62,772 bases of DNA from an uncultured Bacteroidales bacterium (GTDB lineage: Bacteria > Bacteroidota > Bacteroidia > Bacteroidales > UBA932): NCBI GenBank assembly GCA_944326225.1, contig CALVDI010000007.1:1-62772 (forward strand), read 5' to 3'. Within the stretch, counting starts at the first letter, position 1; each line of letters begins with the position of its first letter. A program made the position numbers and the translations under genes. The notes under the pieces were generated by a model. It saw nothing but the letters and a program-made list of their open reading frames with translations, was not told the origin of the DNA and did no database searches. Positions 52,760-62,605 of this stretch are shown here, piece by piece.

Positions 52760-52821
52760 CGGCTGGCAGACGGCTTTTGGAAGCAGCGGTGCGGTGTATA
52801 AAAGAGAGTGTTTTATAATCA

Positions 52822-52929
52822 ATAAGTTATATTGGGATACTGCACATTTGACGGGTTTTAAAACGGCCAAATGTGCAGTGCGATTTGTAACTTGCTGATA
52901 GTCAGATATACAATTTGTCAGGGTGCACC
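52822..52929 (+). repeat. Hairpin-bearing dispersed repeat, copy B
   Basis: CTGCACATTTG (52840-52850) and CCAAATGTGCAG (52867-52878) form a nearly perfect stem. It is followed by ATTTGTAACTTGCTG and CAGGGTGCACC. It matches copy A at 29133-29242 in order, orientation and most bases. It lies between uup and the Wadjet operon, perhaps marking the left edge of that island. Confidence 0.7.
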
Positions 52930-53022
52930 GGCACTTCCAAAAGGTCTCAGTTTCAGGATAACAGTAGAATCTCACTGAGTGATGTTTCCGGTGTCTTTCT
53001 TGCGCATTAATAAAAAATTTAA

Positions 53023-53030
53023 TAACTTGG
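53023..53030 (+). promoter_or_regulatory. -7 box of the Wadjet operon
   Basis: TAACTTGG, a variant of TAnnTTTG, 7 nt before the jetA ATG. If used, the transcript would be nearly leaderless. Confidence 0.4.
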
Positions 53031-53037
53031 CGTTGCA

Positions 53038-54234
53038 ATGCCTACGTATAACTCGATAAAAGAACTGACAAGAGGACTTCAGCAAGGAGCCAGGCTGCTG
53101 AACGACATGTTCATCAAGAGGAAGACAGTGTCTATAAAGTACGATGATGCTGTTGAGACTCTTGACGGTGATGAGAACAAGGTAAGGCATCTCATAGATT
53201 TCGGAGTTATAGTCCGCTCAGGGGATACACTTGAACTGGACGATGCTTACCAGCGTTTTTTTGAAGAGGTGCTGGCGGTCAATGAGGATATAAACATTGC
53301 TTCTGTGCAGACCTATATCTCAAAGTTGAAGTTGGGGATACATTCTTTTCTGGCGACTGATAATCCTGCCAGACGGTCTCAGTATCTTAGAGAGATACGC
53401 CATACTTTCAAAAGTATTGAGAATGCCACTATGAGGAATGTCGTTGACCTTAAGCGGAATGTGGAGCAGACATACAAGCAGGAGCCTAATTTCAGGATAA
53501 AGGAACTTCGGTTGCGGGATTTTGATGAAAAGGCCGGACTGATATCAGAGTTGGTCAGGCAGACCGAGAAAGTCATGGACGAGCAGACTGTGTTTTTTGC
53601 CAATGCAGCAGCGGATGTCGGACTTAAGCAGACTGTAAGCGAGGTAAGGGAAGGCCTGCACGAGTCGTCCCATGCCCTTATCTCGATATCGGCTCAGATT
53701 ATAGATTATCTGAATCGGATAGAGTATCAGAGCAAGTTGGTTAAGAAAATCCGGCAGTTGAAATACATGAAGGATCAGCTGATGGTTGAGGAATGTACGG
53801 ATATAAGGAGCGTGCTCGGCAAGACAAATGACCTGTGGATGGAAAAACAGCCAAAATACATTACCCGTGTTTCATTGGATTTTCTTAGGAATGATGATTC
53901 TGCATTGGAAATACTCAACAGCATAAGGCGCAGGCTGTCCAGGAAAACTACTGTCAAGTCCCGTTTGGCAGGCAGGATAGATGACGAGTATCTTTTTGAG
54001 AACCAGGAAATCAGCCGGATGTTCGACCATGCGGCAATCATGAACGGTTTCATGGCACAGGGAAGGGATCTGTTCAGCTATGTATGGAATTATGAGTTTG
54101 AGACACCGGCAGATGAGGAGATGCGCCTTGTACTGTTTCTGCAGTTGGCCTCACAGTACGACGGACGGTTGAGATATTTGTCTGAGACCAGAACCGTCAA
54201 GAATATTGAATACCCTCTAATCTATTCAAAATGA
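53038..54234 (+). CDS. jetA: Wadjet system kleisin-like subunit JetA
   Basis: A 398-residue protein at the head of a four-gene Wadjet operon (jetA-B-C-D). It starts with a winged-helix-like part (SIKELTRGLQQGARLLNDM), continues as helices (IRELRLRDFDEKAGLISELV), and ends with an RFLQ-like wing, the DUF3375/kleisin layout of the MukF-like subunit that bridges the SMC heads. Wadjet loops out and cleaves small circular DNA and so blocks plasmids. I rely on gene order and general fold, since the residue identity of JetA families is low. The stop overlaps the jetB start. Confidence 0.85.
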   Translation: MPTYNSIKELTRGLQQGARLLNDMFIKRKTVSIKYDDAVETLDGDENKVRHLIDFGVIVRSGDTLELDDAYQRFFEEVLAVNEDINIASVQTYISKLKLGIHSFLATDNPARRSQYLREIRHTFKSIENATMRNVVDLKRNVEQTYKQEPNFRIKELRLRDFDEKAGLISELVRQTEKVMDEQTVFFANAAADVGLKQTVSEVREGLHESSHALISISAQIIDYLNRIEYQSKLVKKIRQLKYMKDQLMVEECTDIRSVLGKTNDLWMEKQPKYITRVSLDFLRNDDSALEILNSIRRRLSRKTTVKSRLAGRIDDEYLFENQEISRMFDHAAIMNGFMAQGRDLFSYVWNYEFETPADEEMRLVLFLQLASQYDGRLRYLSETRTVKNIEYPLIYSK

Positions 54235-54782
54235 AATATACCCGTGAAGTTTTCCAAAGACTGTCCAGAGGACAGTTCATTTCAGGGAACAGCGTAGATC
54301 CTGAAACCAGAGCCATTTACAATGATATCGAGGAGTGTCAGGCGGAGTATGAGGATTATTTCCGCAAGATAGACTTTCATCTGTCTGCGGGAGACGGTTT
54401 TTATTATTTCAGCAGAAAAGAACCGAGGGTGAATATTGAGAATAAACTGCAGTCTCTCTTTTCCTGGATTGACTATCTGGATTTTCTGAAGACTTATGAC
54501 ACCACTTTTGATGCCGGGACTCAGTTCTCGTTGGCGCAGATGGAGATAAGACTTTCGTCTGATCTTGAGTTGAAGGAAAAGCTGTCAAGGCTGTTTCAGG
54601 ACAAACTGTCCAATCGGGATAAGCTCGAGGCTCTCGCAAATACATTGGTGAGCATGGGGTTTGCAGAACAGACGAACGAGACGGAGGAACGGTATCAGGT
54701 GACATCTGCATTTCATTATATCGAGCAGATTATTTCCTGCATAAACATTGATGAGGAGGTGAGAGATGAGATACCTGAATAA
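54231..54782 (+). CDS. jetB: Wadjet system MukE-like subunit JetB
   Basis: A 183-residue protein in the position and size of JetB (DUF4194), the MukE-like winged-helix subunit that binds JetA and DNA. Helical and winged segments such as FSLAQMEIRLSSDLELKEKL and YQVTSAFHYIEQIISCI are visible. It overlaps jetA by 4 nt and jetC by 17 nt, so translation is coupled at a fixed ratio. There are no catalytic motifs. Confidence 0.83.
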   Translation: MKYTREVFQRLSRGQFISGNSVDPETRAIYNDIEECQAEYEDYFRKIDFHLSAGDGFYYFSRKEPRVNIENKLQSLFSWIDYLDFLKTYDTTFDAGTQFSLAQMEIRLSSDLELKEKLSRLFQDKLSNRDKLEALANTLVSMGFAEQTNETEERYQVTSAFHYIEQIISCINIDEEVRDEIPE

Positions 54783-57700
54783 GATAGTGTTCATAAACAG
54801 CGCGCACATCCCCTATGCGGAAATCAAGCTTGACGGGAATGTACATTTCATAGGTACGCAGGGAGTCGGGAAGTCAACACTGCTCCGTGCCATATTGTTC
54901 TTCTACAATGTGGACAAAAGCAAGTTGGGCATACGGACCCAGGATAAGCAGAAAAGTTATGACGAATTTTACTTTCCTTACCCGAACTCCTATATTATAT
55001 ATGAGGTTTGCAGGGAAAACGGACATTTCTTCGTAATGACCTTTTTGTCGAGTGGGAGGGTTGCCTTTCGTATTGTGGACTGTCCTTACGAGAAGCACTT
55101 TTTTGTGGAAGAGGACAATAGCGTAAGGTATGAGTGGGGTCGGATAAGCGAGCGGATCGGGACGAAAGTCTACCGCAGCAACATCATACGGAGTTACGAG
55201 GAATTCCGGGATATAATCTATGGAAACGTTCAGAATGTCTCCAAGGATCTGCGCAGATTCAACCTGATGGAAAGTTCGCGGTACCAGAATGTGCCCAGGA
55301 CTATTCAGAATATTTTCCTGAATCAGAGTCTGGAGTCGCGTGTCATTAAGGACACCATTATCAGCTCAATGGATTTTGCGGGAGACAGCATAGATTTGAA
55401 TTTCTACAGAGAGTATGTGAAAGATTTCCGCCAGCAGTATGATGATATATGGAAATGGTATAAAAAGGATAAGAACGGTAAGGTAAAAGTAAAGGCAGAA
55501 GCAGACAAGGTCATTGCAGATTATTCTCTATACGAGGTGGTTGGGAAAAGCATAAGAGAATTGTGCGCAAAACTCAACTATGCAATGGCGCGTGATACGG
55601 GCAGATTGCCTTTGTTGGAGGAGGATATCGCTGCTCAATCCCGGGAACTGGCCCGCCTGAAAAGGCTGTTGAGCGAAGAACATGACAAATATAACAAGGA
55701 AAGGGATACCCTGAAAGAGGAAGAAGGTATTCTGAAAAACTTTTTCAAAGAGGTGAGGGCCAGAATGCAGCATTATTCTGATATAGGGATAGATGCGTTA
55801 ATCGCTAAAATGGCGCAGGAGCAGGAGCTGGGTATCCGCAGAAAATCGTTGCTAAGTCAGGAGAATGTCCTTACGGATAAGAGCCAGAGTGTCAGAATGC
55901 GGTATGAGACTCTGAGACAGGAACTGGACAACAGTCTTAAGGAGTTCCGCCTGCAGGCCGGACAGCAGATCAATGAAATAGAACGTGTGAAAACGGAAGA
56001 TGTCGCAAAAGCTCAGTCCGGGTATGCCTCAAAACTGAGTGGCCTGAATACTCTCTATCAACAGAAACAGGATGATATACAGGAGAATATAGATGGACTT
56101 ACGCACGACAAGACAGAATTGAGACTAAAGGAACAGAAAATCCGTCAGTTAAATCCTTATCAGAAGGAAACAGAAGACTTGGCGGAGCGGATTCGTGGAC
56201 TGGAGGCGAAAAGTCATGCCTTAACCGTGGAACTTAATCAAAAGCAGCGGGAAATAGAACGGATAACAAATGATACGGCATCCAGGCGTAAAGAGCTTGA
56301 GAATGCATGCGAGAAAGACCTTCTTGCTATAAGTCATGCCAAAGAGAAGCTGGAGCAGGAAATAGCCAGGCTCGATGAGCTCTTAGCCGGGCAGAAAGGC
56401 TCCTTCATAGAGTGGTTGGAGGATAATGCCGCCGGATGGAAAGACAACATAGGCAAGGTGGCGAATGATACCCTGCTTTACAGTACTTCTCTCGAGCCGT
56501 GCAAAGCCGGAAACTCGGACACGCTGTATGGAATCCGCATTGAACTGCAGAATGTGGACAGGACTGTAAATACTCCTGAGGAAATACGCTCAAAGATAGA
56601 TGAATATAAGCAGCAAATCAACGCACTTGACAATAAGGCGGCAGAGAGGCAGCAGAAGCTCGATGGCGATATTGAAGAACTGGAACGTCAGCCGTCGGTG
56701 AAATTAAAGAGTCTCCGCAAGGAGAGAATCAACATGAAAGCGGAGTTAGGGCAGATTCCGGCACATATAGGACATTGCAAGAAAGAGATGGGCGTATATC
56801 AGGAAAAACTCAAAGAATGGAGAGACAGAGAGTTGAATGATATAAGAGGACAGTCAGGGAAGATAGAGGAACAGCTGGCCAGGCAAAGAACGTTAAAGCA
56901 GCAGACTGGCGCTCAGAAGCGGAAGGAGGAAGAAGAGTTGCGCAAATCTGTGGAGCGCAGGAAAAGGGATATTGATACTTTTGCAAGGCAGAAAAAAGAA
57001 GATGTCAATGCAGCACTCAAGCGGCATGAGGCTGACATCGCAGTGCGCAGACGGGAACTTGAGGCGCAGGAGGATGCGGAGCTTAAAGGACACGGCGTGG
57101 ATGTAAACAGACTGGCGGAGATAAAGGTGGAGCTGCAACAGGTCAACGACGCTCTGGATTATATTGAGAATCATAAACAAGATTATTACGCCTGGCAGAA
57201 AGACAAGAAGGAGTATTTTGATCTGGAACAGTCCAAGAAAGAGGAACGGAAACGGCTGCAGGAGAAGATGAGTGAGCTGCAGCATAAATTTGACCTCAGA
57301 AGAGAGAAAAAAGAGGCGGAAATCCGCACGGTCTCCGGGGAAGTCCAGTCCCTGCAGAGTGAGAAGGCGAGGCTTGAAGAAGCCATTGACAGAGTCAATC
57401 AGTTTTTAAACAATCCCACATGCCCCTCCGATATTGCCGGGGCCGGGACTCAGGAGACTCAGGAACAACTGTCTTCTATCCTGGACAACTTAAGGGACAA
57501 CATCAGCGGCTTGCAGCAGAGGATGGAGGAATTCAAAAAAGCTGTTACTGTATTCAAGAGCAATTTCTCACCTCAGAATACATTCCATTTCCGAACAGAA
57601 TTCAATACCGAAGCGGATTACGTGGAATTTGCGTCAGAACTGCACGAATTCATATCCAATAACAAGATAGAGGAGTACCGTACCCGTACAAGCGGTCTGT

Positions 57701-58422
57701 ATGCCGACATAATCAAGCGGATAGCCAGGGAAGTAGGAGATCTTGACAGGCACGGCGCCGAGATTAGAGCCACCATAAACGAGATAAACCGGGACTTCAG
57801 GGAAAACAATTTCGCAGGTGTAATCAAGGAAATAGAGCTTCGTGCAGTGGAAAGCAGTGACAGGCTTATGCAGCAGCTTATCAATATCAAGAAATTTGAT
57901 GAGGAATATGGCTTTGATATTGGAAATCTGAACCTGTTTTCGACAGAAGAGTCCCAAAGCAAGACTAACGAGCAGGCTGTAAAGCTGTTGGTGAACCTGA
58001 TAGAGATGATGGACTTAGACCGCAAACGTGAGAGGATAACCCTGTCTGATACATTCAAACTGGAGTTCAAGGTCATGGAGAATGACAACGACACCAACTG
58101 GGTGGAAAAACTCTCCAATGTCGGCTCGGACGGAACGGACATATTGGTGAAATCGATGGTGAACATCATGCTTATCAATGTGTTCAAGAGGAAGATATCC
58201 AAGCATTTCGGGGATTTCAGGCTGCACTGCATGATGGATGAGATAGGCAAACTGCATCCTGATAATGTGGAAGGTATATTGAAGTTTGCCAACGTGAGGA
58301 ATATTTTCCTGATAAACAGTTCTCCGACAACGTACAATGCTCAGGTCTACAAGTACACATATTCTCTGAGCAAGGATGACAGGAACAATACTGTAGTAAA
58401 AACATTGCTGACTATAAGATAA
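54766..58422 (+). CDS. jetC: Wadjet SMC-like ATPase JetC
   Basis: A 1,218-residue SMC/MukB-like ATPase. Walker A is FIGTQGVGKSTLLRA (about 28-42). A long coiled-coil arm fills about 270-1000 (repeated heptad-like K/E/L runs such as LAERIRGLEAKSHALTVELN). The C-terminal half of the ATPase has a degenerate signature region and Walker B MMDEIGKLHP (about 1153-1162) with a following His/Ser region (FLINSSP). Two such chains form the loop-extruding motor of Wadjet. No frame damage is visible over the whole length. It overlaps jetB, and jetD starts 8 nt after it. Confidence 0.92.
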   Translation: MRYLNKIVFINSAHIPYAEIKLDGNVHFIGTQGVGKSTLLRAILFFYNVDKSKLGIRTQDKQKSYDEFYFPYPNSYIIYEVCRENGHFFVMTFLSSGRVAFRIVDCPYEKHFFVEEDNSVRYEWGRISERIGTKVYRSNIIRSYEEFRDIIYGNVQNVSKDLRRFNLMESSRYQNVPRTIQNIFLNQSLESRVIKDTIISSMDFAGDSIDLNFYREYVKDFRQQYDDIWKWYKKDKNGKVKVKAEADKVIADYSLYEVVGKSIRELCAKLNYAMARDTGRLPLLEEDIAAQSRELARLKRLLSEEHDKYNKERDTLKEEEGILKNFFKEVRARMQHYSDIGIDALIAKMAQEQELGIRRKSLLSQENVLTDKSQSVRMRYETLRQELDNSLKEFRLQAGQQINEIERVKTEDVAKAQSGYASKLSGLNTLYQQKQDDIQENIDGLTHDKTELRLKEQKIRQLNPYQKETEDLAERIRGLEAKSHALTVELNQKQREIERITNDTASRRKELENACEKDLLAISHAKEKLEQEIARLDELLAGQKGSFIEWLEDNAAGWKDNIGKVANDTLLYSTSLEPCKAGNSDTLYGIRIELQNVDRTVNTPEEIRSKIDEYKQQINALDNKAAERQQKLDGDIEELERQPSVKLKSLRKERINMKAELGQIPAHIGHCKKEMGVYQEKLKEWRDRELNDIRGQSGKIEEQLARQRTLKQQTGAQKRKEEEELRKSVERRKRDIDTFARQKKEDVNAALKRHEADIAVRRRELEAQEDAELKGHGVDVNRLAEIKVELQQVNDALDYIENHKQDYYAWQKDKKEYFDLEQSKKEERKRLQEKMSELQHKFDLRREKKEAEIRTVSGEVQSLQSEKARLEEAIDRVNQFLNNPTCPSDIAGAGTQETQEQLSSILDNLRDNISGLQQRMEEFKKAVTVFKSNFSPQNTFHFRTEFNTEADYVEFASELHEFISNNKIEEYRTRTSGLYADIIKRIAREVGDLDRHGAEIRATINEINRDFRENNFAGVIKEIELRAVESSDRLMQQLINIKKFDEEYGFDIGNLNLFSTEESQSKTNEQAVKLLVNLIEMMDLDRKRERITLSDTFKLEFKVMENDNDTNWVEKLSNVGSDGTDILVKSMVNIMLINVFKRKISKHFGDFRLHCMMDEIGKLHPDNVEGILKFANVRNIFLINSSPTTYNAQVYKYTYSLSKDDRNNTVVKTLLTIR

Positions 58423-58430
58423 ATTTGAGG

Positions 58431-59297
58431 ATGGGAATAACAGTTGCACAGACGGAAAAACTGCTGAGGCTGGCAAAAGGAGATACGTTGCCGTCGAGTA
58501 TACTTAAAGGAGAACTGTTCGAATGGATGGTTTCGGACGGAATACTTGTTGCCGTCACCCGAGGCAGCAGGAAGAGTTATCGTGCAAGGGACGGGCGGTC
58601 TCTGAGAGATTATATTGCTGCTCATTTTGATATCAGAGATCTTGAGAAGTATTGTAAACTGTTACAGGAAGGAGGTGCGTCCCGTGCTGAGCAGGTGAGA
58701 ATGACCGGGAATTCCAAGACTATAGCGCGCCGTACCTTCTACGGCTTTATGGTCAATTGTTATGAGCCGATACCTGTTATGTTGGCGGGAAAGTCTTTCA
58801 ACCTGTTGCCTGAGGAAGGGACATTCGCATTCATCTATGATTTTAATACATTCTCAATTCCGGGAGACACCGTAGTTGTAGGCATTGAGAATGCCGAGAA
58901 TTTCAGATACATCAGAGAGCAACGGCCGCTGTTTGAGTCCATATCTCCAAAAGAATCCAGGTTGTTGTTTGTCTCCAGATATCCTCAGGAGCAGAGTCGT
59001 GACCTTATGCAATGGCTTATTTCAATCCCCAACCGGTATGTCCATTTCGGAGATTTGGACTTGGCAGGAATCCATATTTACCAGAGTGAGTACTACAGAC
59101 GTCTCGGGGAAAGGTCCTCTTTCCTGATTCCGCAAGATTATGAGTACAGAATATCAACAGGCAGCAGTGAAAGATATGACAATCAGTACAGTAGATTCGG
59201 CAAAATGAAGATTACAGATTCCCGTGTGGCCTCTCTTGTGGAGTGCATTCACAGATACCATAAAGGCTACGATCAGGAAGGGTTTATTGGCAGTTGA
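58431..59297 (+). CDS. jetD: Wadjet TOPRIM nuclease JetD
   Basis: A 288-residue JetD (DUF2220/DUF3322-like) nuclease that cuts the DNA loop captured by JetABC. The N-terminus is a winged helix; the C-terminal TOPRIM domain shows the acidic residue in VVVGIENAENF (about 146) and the DxD motif in FGDLDLAGIHIY (about 203-214), with a final DQEGF. A TTG at 58425 is in frame, but the ATG at 58431 with TTGAGG just ahead is preferred. It is followed by a helicase gene 22 nt later. TOPRIM residues are present, so the system should be active. Confidence 0.9.
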   Translation: MGITVAQTEKLLRLAKGDTLPSSILKGELFEWMVSDGILVAVTRGSRKSYRARDGRSLRDYIAAHFDIRDLEKYCKLLQEGGASRAEQVRMTGNSKTIARRTFYGFMVNCYEPIPVMLAGKSFNLLPEEGTFAFIYDFNTFSIPGDTVVVGIENAENFRYIREQRPLFESISPKESRLLFVSRYPQEQSRDLMQWLISIPNRYVHFGDLDLAGIHIYQSEYYRRLGERSSFLIPQDYEYRISTGSSERYDNQYSRFGKMKITDSRVASLVECIHRYHKGYDQEGFIGS

Positions 59298-59319
59298 ACA
59301 TTGTGTGTCACTTACTGTT

Positions 59320-62031
59320 ATGGATGCAAGGCTGTACATGATTGTGGATTTGGAAAGGCGAGGAGATAAGCGGATGTTCATCACGGAGCAAGTCGTCTCG
59401 ATAAGTGAGAGCGGCAGCGGTCTTTGGACGGTGCGGTTCTCTTCGTCTCCGCGAGTGTTCAATTATAATCATGCGAGACTGTTGTGTCTTTCGCATCCAG
59501 AGACTGTGGACCTTCAGGATAAAGGACTGTATGTCAACAATCGTCATATAACGAATGTCAAAGAACTCCTCCGCTTCACGGATGGGCGGCATACATTTTA
59601 TCATGTGACTTATAACAACGGTTATTATGAGAATCTTGAAAGTACGGAAGTATATGTCTCCCGCACACGTCTGGATAAAGATGGAGGCTCTGTCTGGGAT
59701 TACTTGCGTAAATTGGCCGAAGAGACAAGTCTGATTACGGAAGAAGATGACAGTATTCTTTCTAAGCAATATGATTTGGTGGATGTTATGCGGGATAATG
59801 TTCCATTGGTGCAGTATCTTGGCAACGGAGCCCGGTTGGCCTCATATAACTGTCCGGAGCAGATATACTATCCGTTCGGATGCAATGCAAGCCAGAAGGC
59901 TGCTGTGGAAGCCGCATTGATACATCAGGTAAGTATCATTCAAGGTCCTCCTGGGACAGGCAAGACACAGACCATCTTGAATATCATCGCCAATCTGCTT
60001 ATGGCGGATAAAACGGTGCTGGTTGTGTCGAACAACAATTCTGCCGTCGATAATGTGGCGGAAAAGCTTGAGAAAGAATGTCTTGGTTTTATTGTGGCCA
60101 AATTAGGCAGTGCTCAGAATAAGAAGGCATTCGTTGCCAATCAACCCGATTATCCGGATATGAGCGGTTGGACGATAGAGGAAGTCCCAGCAAAACTATG
60201 TGCGCGGGATTCGTTGCTTGCTGTGACTAAGGGATTTGAGGCACAGATACGTCAATCTGGGCTCAAATCTGAGTACGATGCCTTACTGAAAGAGATGAAA
60301 TACGAGAATATGGCCCGACAGGAGCAATCGTGCGATGAAAAATTAGGCGGGATGAGCTCAGCCGTGCTTATGAGGCTGCTTAATCTGTATCAGATGAAGA
60401 TCAGGGCGAGCGGGCGCAAGCCGGGTCTGTGGTCCAGGTTAAAGTGGACTTGTGCATTCGGTATGAGAATGTTCCGGTTTCTCAGCAGCGCTCCGTCTTA
60501 TGTGACACGTTCATTGGAGGCTGCGTATTATTCTTCGCGCAAGACTGAAATAGAAGAGGAACTATGCTCAATCGCTGCGATGCTGCAATCTATGGATCTC
60601 GATGAGCGGACAAAAGATTTGCGCTCGACTTCACTTGCAGTGTTGAAGAGCAGGATGGCTGATCGTTATGGCTCAGGAGAAAGGCAAAAGTTTGAAGTCA
60701 GAGAGATAAAACCGAAGACTGCGGCATTCCTGAAAGAGTATCCGGTCGTGCTGAGTACAACCTATTCTGCCAAGAGCTGTATCAGTAAGGATATGGTCTT
60801 TGACTACGTGATTATGGATGAGGCGTCACAAGTTGATATAAAGACAGGTGCGCTGGCCTTGTCCTGTGCCGTGAATGCCGTAATTGTAGGCGATGACAAA
60901 CAGCTCCCCAATGTGGTCAGCAAGGAGGAGGCACAGGCATTGAACGCTATCCAATCAGAGTACAATGTGGATGACAGATACAATGCCGCCACGCACAGCT
61001 TCCTGCAGTCTTGTGTGGAAGTCTTCAAGGATGCGCCGGTGACATTGCTCCGTGAGCATTATCGCTGCCATCCCAAAATAATCGGATTCTGCAATAAACG
61101 GTTCTATGACGGCGAATTGGTGGCCATGACCACAGATATGGGCGAGGATAAGGTCTTGCAGGTTGTACGGACAGTCAAGGGAAATCATGCCCGCGGGCAT
61201 TTCAACCAGCGTGAGATTGATGTGGTAACGCAGGAAGTGATGCCGGAATATGCGGATGTTGGTAGTGTGGGCATCATTACTCCCTATCGGTTGCAGGCGG
61301 AGGAAATCAATAAGGCGATAGGGACAGATATTGCCAGTACGGTACACAAGTATCAGGGACGTGAGTGTGATACCATCATCATGAGTACGGTTGATAATGT
61401 GCCGACGGAGTTCTCAGATGACCCCAATCTGCTCAACGTGGCAATATCACGTGCCAAGACACATCTGTGCATAGTCACCAATGGCAATGATATGCCGCAG
61501 AGCTCTAATTTGGCCCAGCTTATCGCTTATATCCAGTACAACAACTTTGAAGTGAAGGAGAGTAAGCTTCATTCAGTGTTTGATTTGTTGTATAAGCAGT
61601 ATACGGCGGAACGGTTGGCGTATGAGCAGGCTCACTCGGTCGGTGCTGGGTATCTCTCTGAAAACCTTGTGTATGACATGCTGATTAAAGGAATAGCCAA
61701 GTCGGGATTGGCAAATACAGGTGTCCTGTGCCATTATCCTCTGTCAAGATTGATTGCTGACTGGGATATGCTGGATGAGCGAGAGAAAGCGTTTGCAGAA
61801 AGCCCTCTTGCGCATGTGGACTTTTTGATTTATAATTCTCTTACCAAGAGGCCGCTTCAGACCATCGAAGTGGACGGTTGGCATTTTCATAAAAACAGCG
61901 AAGCCCAGCAGTCACGTGATGCCCTAAAGAACCAAATACTCACTAAGTTCGGATTGTGTCCGCATCGTATTTCCACAACAGCGACCGTAACCGAGGAAAC
62001 GATTATGAGCCTTCTCAATCAGGATAAATGA
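59320..62031 (+). CDS. SF1 (UPF1-like) helicase with C-terminal nuclease-like segment
   Basis: A 903-residue protein. After an N-terminal region of unknown fold (1-190) comes a DNA/RNA helicase of superfamily 1: GPPGTGKTQT (about 209-218), DEASQ (about 503-507), GDDKQLP, REHYRCHP, VHKYQGRE and NVAISRAK. A large helical insert (about 300-480) lies between motifs I and II. The C-terminal 70-80 residues (VDFLIYNS...IEVDGWHFH) have the D...ExDG pattern of PD-(D/E)XK/DUF2726-like nucleases. The ATG at 59320 is 22 nt after jetD; an earlier in-frame GTG (59224) overlaps jetD. The tight arrangement suggests a fifth defence gene with Wadjet. Confidence 0.85.
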   Translation: MDARLYMIVDLERRGDKRMFITEQVVSISESGSGLWTVRFSSSPRVFNYNHARLLCLSHPETVDLQDKGLYVNNRHITNVKELLRFTDGRHTFYHVTYNNGYYENLESTEVYVSRTRLDKDGGSVWDYLRKLAEETSLITEEDDSILSKQYDLVDVMRDNVPLVQYLGNGARLASYNCPEQIYYPFGCNASQKAAVEAALIHQVSIIQGPPGTGKTQTILNIIANLLMADKTVLVVSNNNSAVDNVAEKLEKECLGFIVAKLGSAQNKKAFVANQPDYPDMSGWTIEEVPAKLCARDSLLAVTKGFEAQIRQSGLKSEYDALLKEMKYENMARQEQSCDEKLGGMSSAVLMRLLNLYQMKIRASGRKPGLWSRLKWTCAFGMRMFRFLSSAPSYVTRSLEAAYYSSRKTEIEEELCSIAAMLQSMDLDERTKDLRSTSLAVLKSRMADRYGSGERQKFEVREIKPKTAAFLKEYPVVLSTTYSAKSCISKDMVFDYVIMDEASQVDIKTGALALSCAVNAVIVGDDKQLPNVVSKEEAQALNAIQSEYNVDDRYNAATHSFLQSCVEVFKDAPVTLLREHYRCHPKIIGFCNKRFYDGELVAMTTDMGEDKVLQVVRTVKGNHARGHFNQREIDVVTQEVMPEYADVGSVGIITPYRLQAEEINKAIGTDIASTVHKYQGRECDTIIMSTVDNVPTEFSDDPNLLNVAISRAKTHLCIVTNGNDMPQSSNLAQLIAYIQYNNFEVKESKLHSVFDLLYKQYTAERLAYEQAHSVGAGYLSENLVYDMLIKGIAKSGLANTGVLCHYPLSRLIADWDMLDEREKAFAESPLAHVDFLIYNSLTKRPLQTIEVDGWHFHKNSEAQQSRDALKNQILTKFGLCPHRISTTATVTEETIMSLLNQDK

Positions 62032-62058
62032 AGAATACTGTATTTTTATTCATTTTAA

Positions 62059-62089
62059 TTGAAATTGTTCATAACAATAATTAAATTTG
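62059..62089 (+). promoter_or_regulatory. Promoter of the small secreted protein gene
   Basis: TTG (62059-62061) and TAAATTTG (62082-62089) are 20 nt apart. The gene starts at 62137, so this unit is separate from the defence operon. Confidence 0.55.
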
Positions 62090-62136
62090 TATACTGAAAT
62101 AGGCTCTAAATTAATAATGTCTTAATATACAAGAGT

Positions 62137-62544
62137 ATGAAAAGGTGTTTCTTGGTATTCATTATGTTTTTTGCTAGTTTGTGCAGTTATGCGCAGTATA
62201 CAGACAGCAATACTAAAAATACATTTGCATCCCCGGATTCAAATGTGAATTATAGATTATTTCAGACTAATAACAGATGGACTTTTCTTAAGTTGGACAC
62301 TCGCAATGGAATAATCACTCATGTGCAATATAGAGCTGGAGACGCGTTTGAGTATCCGTTAAATACAACACCTCTTGTAGAGGGTGATGATGCGAAAGCT
62401 GGCAGATTCTTTTTGTATCCGACAGAGAATACTTATACATACATACTGTTGGATCAAATTGATGGTCGTGTGTGGCAGGTGCTATGGAGTATAGACAAGG
62501 ATAGTCGTGGTATGTGGGCTATAATATACAGTCCATGGGATTGA
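62137..62544 (+). CDS. Small secreted hypothetical protein
   Basis: A 135-residue protein with a signal peptide (CFLVFIMFFASLCSYAQ). The mature part has alternating strands and aromatic residues (YRLFQTNNRWTFLKLDTRNG, WQVLWSIDKDSRGMW) and shows no catalytic motif. It resembles small exported Bacteroidales proteins of unknown function that often follow secreted or regulatory genes. It has its own promoter and a strong hairpin after the stop. Codon use is AT-rich, unlike the core genes, so it may be horizontally acquired. Confidence 0.7.
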   Translation: MKRCFLVFIMFFASLCSYAQYTDSNTKNTFASPDSNVNYRLFQTNNRWTFLKLDTRNGIITHVQYRAGDAFEYPLNTTPLVEGDDAKAGRFFLYPTENTYTYILLDQIDGRVWQVLWSIDKDSRGMWAIIYSPWD

Positions 62545-62581
62545 TATTGTTCAAAAGGAATGCTCTAAAAGAGAAAAGAAA

Positions 62582-62605
62582 AATTTGTATTGCTAAATAC
62601 AAATT
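62582..62605 (+). terminator. AT-rich perfect hairpin after the last gene
   Basis: AATTTGTATT (62582-62591) and AATACAAATT (62596-62605) form a 10-bp perfect stem with a 4-nt loop. It begins about 38 nt after the gene stop, followed by a second hairpin at 62611. Confidence 0.5.

Follow-up and report, generated by a model that had tools for sequence, protein, structure and literature searches.

A UPF1-like helicase with a predicted DUF2726 nuclease tail, encoded directly behind a divergent Wadjet-like operon in an uncultured Bacteroidales bacterium

The helicase-nuclease gene adjoining jetD

The window analysed here, i.e. the whole stretch of 62,772 nucleotides (nt), is an entire contig (CALVDI010000007.1) of the draft genome GCA_944326225.1 from an uncultured Bacteroidales bacterium (GTDB lineage UBA932). 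Near its right end it carries a Wadjet-like operon, jetABCD, which is followed on the same strand by a gene for a protein of 903 amino acids (aa) that combines a superfamily 1 (SF1) helicase motor with a predicted nuclease tail. This helicase-nuclease is quite probably a stand-alone, one-gene defence that shares the cassette and perhaps the transcript of the Wadjet genes and is not required by JetABCD. The gene and its parts are located as follows.

59320..62031, + strand: helicase gene, UPF1/IGHMBP2-like SF1 helicase with a predicted C-terminal DUF2726 nuclease, 903 aa (domain, structure and alignment evidence)
59298..59319, + strand: gap of 22 nt between jetD and the helicase gene, without promoter-like or terminator-like match
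60181..60669, + strand: helical (stalk-like) insertion, residues ~288-450 (AlphaFold secondary structure)
61540..62028, + strand: predicted nuclease tail, residues 741-903 (DUF2726 match; mean pLDDT of the tail model 82)

The last position of jetD is 59297, and the helicase starts with the ATG at 59320, both genes being on one strand. The helicase open reading frame (ORF) is intact, and its ATG start is supported by the retention of M1 in 47 of 50 aligned sequences (window counted). Scans of the 22-nt gap gave neither a sigma70-like nor a terminator-like match, and the Bacteroidota-type -7 motif is absent from it. Thus, the description in the earlier note of an SF1 helicase with a large insert and a nuclease-like tail 22 nt past jetD is borne out by the ORF, Pfam and the AlphaFold model, and its statement that no promoter or terminator intervenes holds for the gap itself. 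However, promoter-like sites on the same strand occur upstream, inside jetC and jetD (58238, 58309 and 58627), and the helicase may therefore have a promoter of its own. Promoter-like sites numbered 21 as compared with 16.0 +/- 3.7 in shuffled sequences, which is about the chance rate. The contig ends 741 nt past the helicase gene.

Pfam analysis of the helicase revealed AAA_11 (103 bits), AAA_12 (92 bits) and, at residues 780-892, DUF2726 (37.5 bits; cut-off 24.7). In a sequence search of the PDB, DNA2, Senataxin and IGHMBP2 ranked first, followed by UPF1. An AlphaFold model built from 50 aligned sequences (mean predicted local distance difference test score, pLDDT, 87; predicted template modelling score, pTM, 0.87) was compared by Foldseek, which placed IGHMBP2, Senataxin (SETX) and UPF1 on top and Dna2 from rank 14. 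The N-terminal region of the protein is beta-rich. Motor motifs I-VI are all present, with the key motor residues invariant in 50 of 50 aligned sequences, and the tail residues E781, D834, E850, D852, H857, Q863, D867 and K870 are likewise invariant in 50 of 50. This conservation agrees with a functional motor and a nuclease of the PD-(D/E)XK type. By its AAA_11/AAA_12 motor and motifs I-VI, the protein belongs to the UPF1-like SF1 helicases, and the DUF2726 match together with the conserved acidic residues assigns the tail, as a prediction, to the DUF2726 (PD-(D/E)XK-type) nucleases. DUF2726 is described as a restriction-endonuclease-fold DNase in PMC3710099.

Occurrence of the helicase and of Wadjet genes in other genomes

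The survey from the helicase side covered 87 loci, of which 79 are in named genomes and 8 were contributed by the family; 84 were distinct after removal of three duplicates (L023, L033 and L044). The scan of genome contigs for helicase relatives contributed the best 80 of 89 and covered stretches that contain any of six peptide patterns. A gene was taken to be near the helicase when it lay within at most 10 kb or up to the contig end, many flanks being cut by contig ends, and neighbouring genes are longest-ORF calls. Jet genes, sought by iterated search with the window Jet proteins and with broader Jet profiles, were found near 2 of the 84 distinct loci, one in a sister species (L014 in genome G173, seen again as L044) and one in genome G082 (L019). 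Within this survey the helicase thus occurs mostly without Wadjet (82 of 84 loci without a Jet gene), which is part of the outcome that the earlier note had named as refuting its idea. Even close relatives of the helicase, with 71-78% identity (L015, L022, L024, L026 and L027), are without a Jet gene, the upstream view in L022 being 1.9 kb.

The survey from the other side started with JetD. JetD was detected in 21 of 393 genomes of the order (E limit 1e-5), and at the 20 of 21 JetD places outside the own genome that were examined, 15 of which show 1 kb or more of downstream sequence, the helicase was found in 0/20. Two further families also have JetD, one in 34 of 201 genomes and the other in 2 of 15, and 35 additional loci from these two families (33 with at least 1 kb downstream) gave 0/35. 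The survey of helicases behind jetD that had been proposed in the note hence gives 0/55 other JetD loci, 48 of which can be followed for 1 kb or more past jetD. JetD relatives with 55-67% identity and 4-6 kb of visible downstream sequence (e.g. L102 and L179) are among those without the helicase. The second G267 place, G986 and G1012 were left out of the count; G581 corresponds to L101 and G551 to L102.

At the genome level, the helicase is present in 13 of the 393 order genomes (E 1e-60, own genome counted), and helicase and JetD are both present in 2 of 393, namely the own genome and G520, where they are on different contigs. Fisher's test gave p 0.15 with the own genome; without it, 1 of 392 genomes has both, as compared with 0.6 expected (p 0.47). 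Co-occurrence of the helicase and Wadjet is thus at chance level, in surveys whose E limits differ between the two proteins and for which the identity of the 393 genomes was assumed from shared handles.

That the helicase is generally a fifth subunit of Wadjet is therefore rejected, given the Jet genes near only 2/84 loci, the helicase in 0/55 jetD loci and the chance-level co-occurrence, and the idea of the earlier note that the helicase-nuclease could degrade the product of JetD as a fifth Wadjet component is not supported. The same three results, together with the varied neighbours described below, support independence of the helicase from Wadjet.

Distribution and neighbours of the helicase family

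Proteins of this helicase-DUF2726 family (~900 aa) were found in Bacteroidota, Bacillota, Campylobacterota and E. coli, and in 9 of 199 genomes of the family to which the window belongs (E 1e-20, own genome counted). In a tree of 78 rows, with the three duplicates and helicase ORFs <700 aa left out, some Bacteroidota rows fall among Bacillota, some of them possibly mis-binned contigs of metagenome-assembled genomes (MAGs). Copies are present on 6 plasmid-labelled records, one of which carries ffh and folD, so that its label is doubtful. The helicase gave no match to viral contigs and two partial matches only to phage records.

The gene immediately upstream of the helicase varies. At the 84 loci it is on the same strand within 30 nt in 21 cases, at 31-100 nt in 11 and further away in 32; it is on the opposite strand in 14, and none is in view in 6. 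Among 20 neighbours, 4 were matchless in Pfam and the others include IstB, Fic, GcpE, a KAP NTPase, an Eco57I methylase with SNF2, GmrSD_N, a YhcG nuclease, a type III restriction subunit with HNH, an outer-membrane barrel, a beta-lactamase-like protein and an esterase. For scanning with PADLOC, non-homologous neighbours were pooled into two sets, A1 (107 of 112 proteins, 5 short ones out) and A2 (138 of 151, 13 short or duplicate ones out, the jetC pieces of L019 among them). Matches listed for these 245 proteins include SspE, HEC-06, DrmD, REase_III, ZorA, BrxA, AbiD and pAgo, the lists giving 25 of 140 and 25 of 81 families, so that one classical Wadjet neighbour might have escaped notice. 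On a Parabacteroides record, a helicase with 78% identity is preceded by SNF2, N6-methylase and TIR genes.

The E. coli homologue is 35% identical to the window helicase over 844 columns, with AAA_11, AAA_12 and DUF2726 all over the cut-off. It was found in 643 of 5,426 complete genomes, at 654 places that are all chromosomal. In the one chromosome context examined it lies in an island of genes rich in insertion sequences (IS), and no Jet gene is annotated within 9 kb. From the varied neighbours and this context, it follows that the helicase-nuclease gene behaves as an independent, mobile unit.

Some members of the family appear interrupted. For the E. coli homologue (L155:8503-11184 and L156:9001-11682), the match spans two annotated features in 3 of 12 listed records, as if the gene were split. 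Relatives in two ORFs, resembling decaying or mis-sequenced genes, were seen in L066, L086, L091, L095, L096 and contig 2 of G379.

A five-gene block shared with a sister species

Comparison with the sister species G173 and with further loci of the genus defined the following element.

52760..62092, + strand: cassette jetABCD-helicase

Over 52895-62092 the window is 99.7% identical in DNA to G173. The left edge of the cassette lies between the stop of an ABC-F gene (52759) and 52895; near-identity with G173 extends leftwards inside the ABC-F gene as far as about 51500, and from there to 49250 bins of 250 nt are 77-88% identical, with one bin at 98%. To the right of 62092 no BLAST alignment between the window and G173 was obtained, which places the right edge of the shared block ~61 nt past the helicase stop. 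A cassette probe at the ABC-F site was positive in 2 of 15 genus loci (most with ~1.5 kb downstream visible, L126 with ~170 nt). In both G141 and G098, ~30-40 nt separate the ABC-F gene from its downstream neighbour, which corresponds to the gene on the right of the cassette in G173 and codes for a cNMP-binding, Crp-like regulator. The insertion in G173 is bounded on both sides, and that in the window genome on the left only, because its right side differs and the contig ends.

The five genes have a GC content of 43.7-47.5%, as compared with 54.3% in window positions 1-52759, and are alike in GC and in GC at third codon positions (GC3). Between the window and G173 they carry 24 differences, of which 12 are in synonymous codons and 12 in nonsynonymous ones. 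The five low-GC genes are thus one recently shared block, representing one event, and the adjacency of jetD and the helicase is therefore explained without a general functional rule. Since the near-identical block of five genes is present in two species, a local functional link between the helicase and Wadjet may nevertheless exist.

Between the ABC-F gene and jetA, at 52776-52881, there is a partly palindromic intergenic repeat of ~106 nt, which is matched in full or in part at many sites across the genomes of the genus, the final ~43 nt on both strands; G173 is without about 74 nt of it at the cassette site. At 62083-62590, AAATTTGTAT repeats at 62083 and 62581 flank an ORF of 135 aa (62137-62544) that has a signal-peptide-like start by eye, is without a Pfam match and is missing in G173, as if it had been deleted or inserted by recombination between the AAATTTGTAT repeats.

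The upstream Wadjet-like operon

The four genes upstream of the helicase were assigned as follows.

53038..54234, + strand: jetA-like (kleisin position), 398 aa (first in the conserved four-gene order; homology)
54231..54782, + strand: jetB / MksE, 183 aa (Pfam MksE 2e-40, 139 bits)
54766..58422, + strand: jetC, SMC-like ATPase, 1218 aa (DUF3584 4.7e-65, 220 bits)
58425..59297, + strand: jetD, predicted Toprim-type nuclease, 290 aa (DUF7281 28.9 bits, cut-off 27)

The genes overlap or abut over 53038-59297, and the listed start of jetD is TTG, with an ATG two codons further in. The jetA-like protein matched nothing in PADLOC and nothing above the cut-off in Pfam; an iterated search tagged 18 such ORFs, the own included, in the fetched Bacteroidales jetD loci. 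PADLOC Jet models matched JetB, JetC and JetD weakly (20-25 bits). In JetC, the Walker A region GTQGVGKST and MMDEIGKLHP are conserved across 14 aligned sequences (window counted), and in JetD the motifs GIEN and HFGDxD are conserved in most of 22; the Toprim label of JetD is based on these motifs and the Wadjet literature. Profile searches of the PDB gave no match for JetD and, for JetC, no Wadjet entry but only an apolipoprotein and one other coiled-coil look-alike. The order A-B-C-D is present in 14 of 20 Bacteroidales JetD loci, 4 being cut by contig ends and 2 having lone JetD matches. Judged from the predicted proteins, the operon has the kleisin-KITE-SMC-Toprim order of a divergent Wadjet-like system, with jetA assigned by position and homology only. 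It possibly represents an uncatalogued Wadjet subtype. JetD of the DUF7281 type was found in the 21 of 393 order genomes mentioned above, but among 296 phylum-wide genomes in the own genome only.

A second, decayed contact with Wadjet genes

In L019, from a related genus of the same family, the helicase lies between a jetC remnant and jetD, with gaps of 9 and 3 nt, respectively, as measured from longest-ORF starts. It is 39% identical to the window helicase over 790 aligned columns; its ORF is open with a shorter N-terminus, and jetD is also open. At L019:8558-16633, jetA is split, jetB is down to its end and jetC is broken, the jetC ends being parted by a UvrD helicase gene, an RNase H gene and a weak Rha78A-like fragment. 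Mis-assembly of L019 is possible. Because jetA, jetB and jetC are broken and other genes lie between the jetC ends, this second contact weighs little as independent support for a link with Wadjet.

Interpretation

If the helicase-nuclease is a stand-alone defence, the motor would load on the single-stranded DNA or RNA of an invader and, driven by ATP, would translocate along the single-stranded nucleic acid. Translocation in the 5'-3' direction is that of the UPF1/IGHMBP2/DNA2-type helicase clade. The fused nuclease would then cut the strand, with the helicase-nuclease acting alone. Being placed behind jetD, the helicase-nuclease gene is probably expressed from the Wadjet transcript and inherited jointly with Wadjet, and the cassette would cover plasmids through Wadjet and another class of invader through the helicase-nuclease in an additive manner. 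Of the parts of this proposal, the defensive role is probable, and the transcript is perhaps shared with Wadjet. The earlier note had offered two readings; that of a separate system is consistent with the findings, whereas that of a fifth Wadjet component is not supported.

Several observations weigh against a stand-alone defence. The isolated tail compared by Foldseek with the PDB gave only weak similarity to BstEII (E 0.11) and TnsA (E 0.46), with no fold match at E 0.001, and a profile search of the PDB with the tail gave no match. The defence-type matches among the neighbours are a raw list without a background rate and are no measure of enrichment, and housekeeping genes adjoin some helicase relatives. 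Both cassettes of the genus hold the helicase and Wadjet together, though they are of recent common origin, and L019 provides a further, separate contact, the helicase lying there between jetD and what is left of jetC. In the literature as searched, no stand-alone helicase-DUF2726 family and no defence activity for the family are described.

In a rival reading, the helicase-nuclease is a true accessory (fifth) component of Wadjet in this lineage, which would load on the linear product of JetD and degrade it and so prevent its re-ligation or recombination. The 22-nt spacing on the strand of jetD, the five-gene block common to two species with its right edge just behind the helicase, the similar GC and GC3 of the five genes and the distant family helicase in L019 would all agree with such a role. 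It is nonetheless unlikely, given 0/55 other jetD loci with the helicase, including those with 55-67% identical JetD (L102 and L179), 82 of 84 helicase loci without a Jet gene (many flanks being contig-cut), the absence of Jet genes beside relatives at 71-78% identity, and the state of L019, where jetA, jetB and jetC are broken and the helicase ORF is open. Just as doubtful is a history in which the helicase-nuclease was recruited into the Wadjet operon here and, independently, in another genus, where the operon has now decayed, giving a five-gene Wadjet that would cut and degrade.

A housekeeping or nucleic-acid-repair helicase captured by the cassette by chance would explain the likeness in fold and sequence to IGHMBP2, UPF1 and DNA2 as well as the housekeeping genes next to some relatives. 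However, a core repair gene would not be expected to be as sparse as this one (9/199 family and 13/393 order genomes), to mix Bacteroidota rows with Bacillota in the tree (mis-binned MAG contigs being possible), to have copies on 6 plasmid-labelled records (one label doubtful) and in an E. coli island, or to be split in two ORFs in some genomes, and this explanation is considered very improbable. Least of all is the jetD-helicase adjacency an assembly artefact. The contig of this draft genome does end 741 nt after the helicase gene, but the same junction was found at 99.7% identity in the middle of a contig of 83,758 nt in G173, a second genome record that possibly shares the sequencing project, and an artefact was rejected on these grounds as having a negligible probability.

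With the stand-alone helicase-nuclease as the preferred reading, the tempting fifth Wadjet gene is replaced by a testable family of ~900-aa helicase-DUF2726 proteins, and the presence of the E. coli homologue in 643 of 5,426 complete genomes makes this family testable in a model species. The comparison of the two species also offers a clear example of a composite defence cassette that is shared as a unit.

Comparison with known systems

The upstream operon resembles Wadjet (JetABCD / MksBEFG), a system that does not recurrently include the helicase. No Wadjet-helicase pair is described in the literature as far as searched, subscription papers being mostly outside reach. The helicase reached no curated NCBIfam cut-off, and among the 25 PADLOC models listed none had its best stretch over both the motor and the nuclease.

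The closest described architecture is that of CoCoNuT type III-B, in which, according to PMC11090510, the CnuH-CnuE fusion joins a UPF1-like SF1 helicase, itself bearing a large helical insertion, to a Vsr-like PD-(D/E)xK nuclease, and CoCoNuTs have an McrB-type GTPase (CnuB) alongside. The two families are likened by description, and the main text of PMC11090510 names neither DUF2726 nor Wadjet. An McrB-like motif was found by motif scan nowhere in the window and in 2 of 87 helicase loci. Membership in CoCoNuT type III-B was therefore rejected, the McrB/CnuB GTPase not being found by this motif scan.

The best PADLOC match of the window helicase is to Mokosh MkoA / MkoC (203 bits, residues 129-738), with which it shares the UPF1-like motor. 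The match is confined to the motor, and the window helicase is without a kinase or phospholipase D (PLD) domain. Mokosh is defined by an MkoA helicase with a kinase and/or PLD partner; membership was rejected, such domains being absent from the helicase and the adjoining Jet proteins.

SF1 motor matches were also obtained to the anti-phage helicases Hhe and ProA of NCBIfam (107 and 150 bits), far below the curated cut-offs of 2000 and 1500 bits, respectively. The window helicase is about half their length and is without a DUF4011 match. Hence, with no N-terminal DUF4011 and a score below the curated cut-off, it was not assigned to the Hhe / DUF4011 helicases.

Finally, the motor fold is common to the window helicase and to DNA2, IGHMBP2 and UPF1. 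DNA2 further resembles it in pairing a nuclease with such a motor, being a nuclease-helicase according to its PDB title, whereas the predicted nuclease of the window helicase is C-terminal and of the DUF2726 type.

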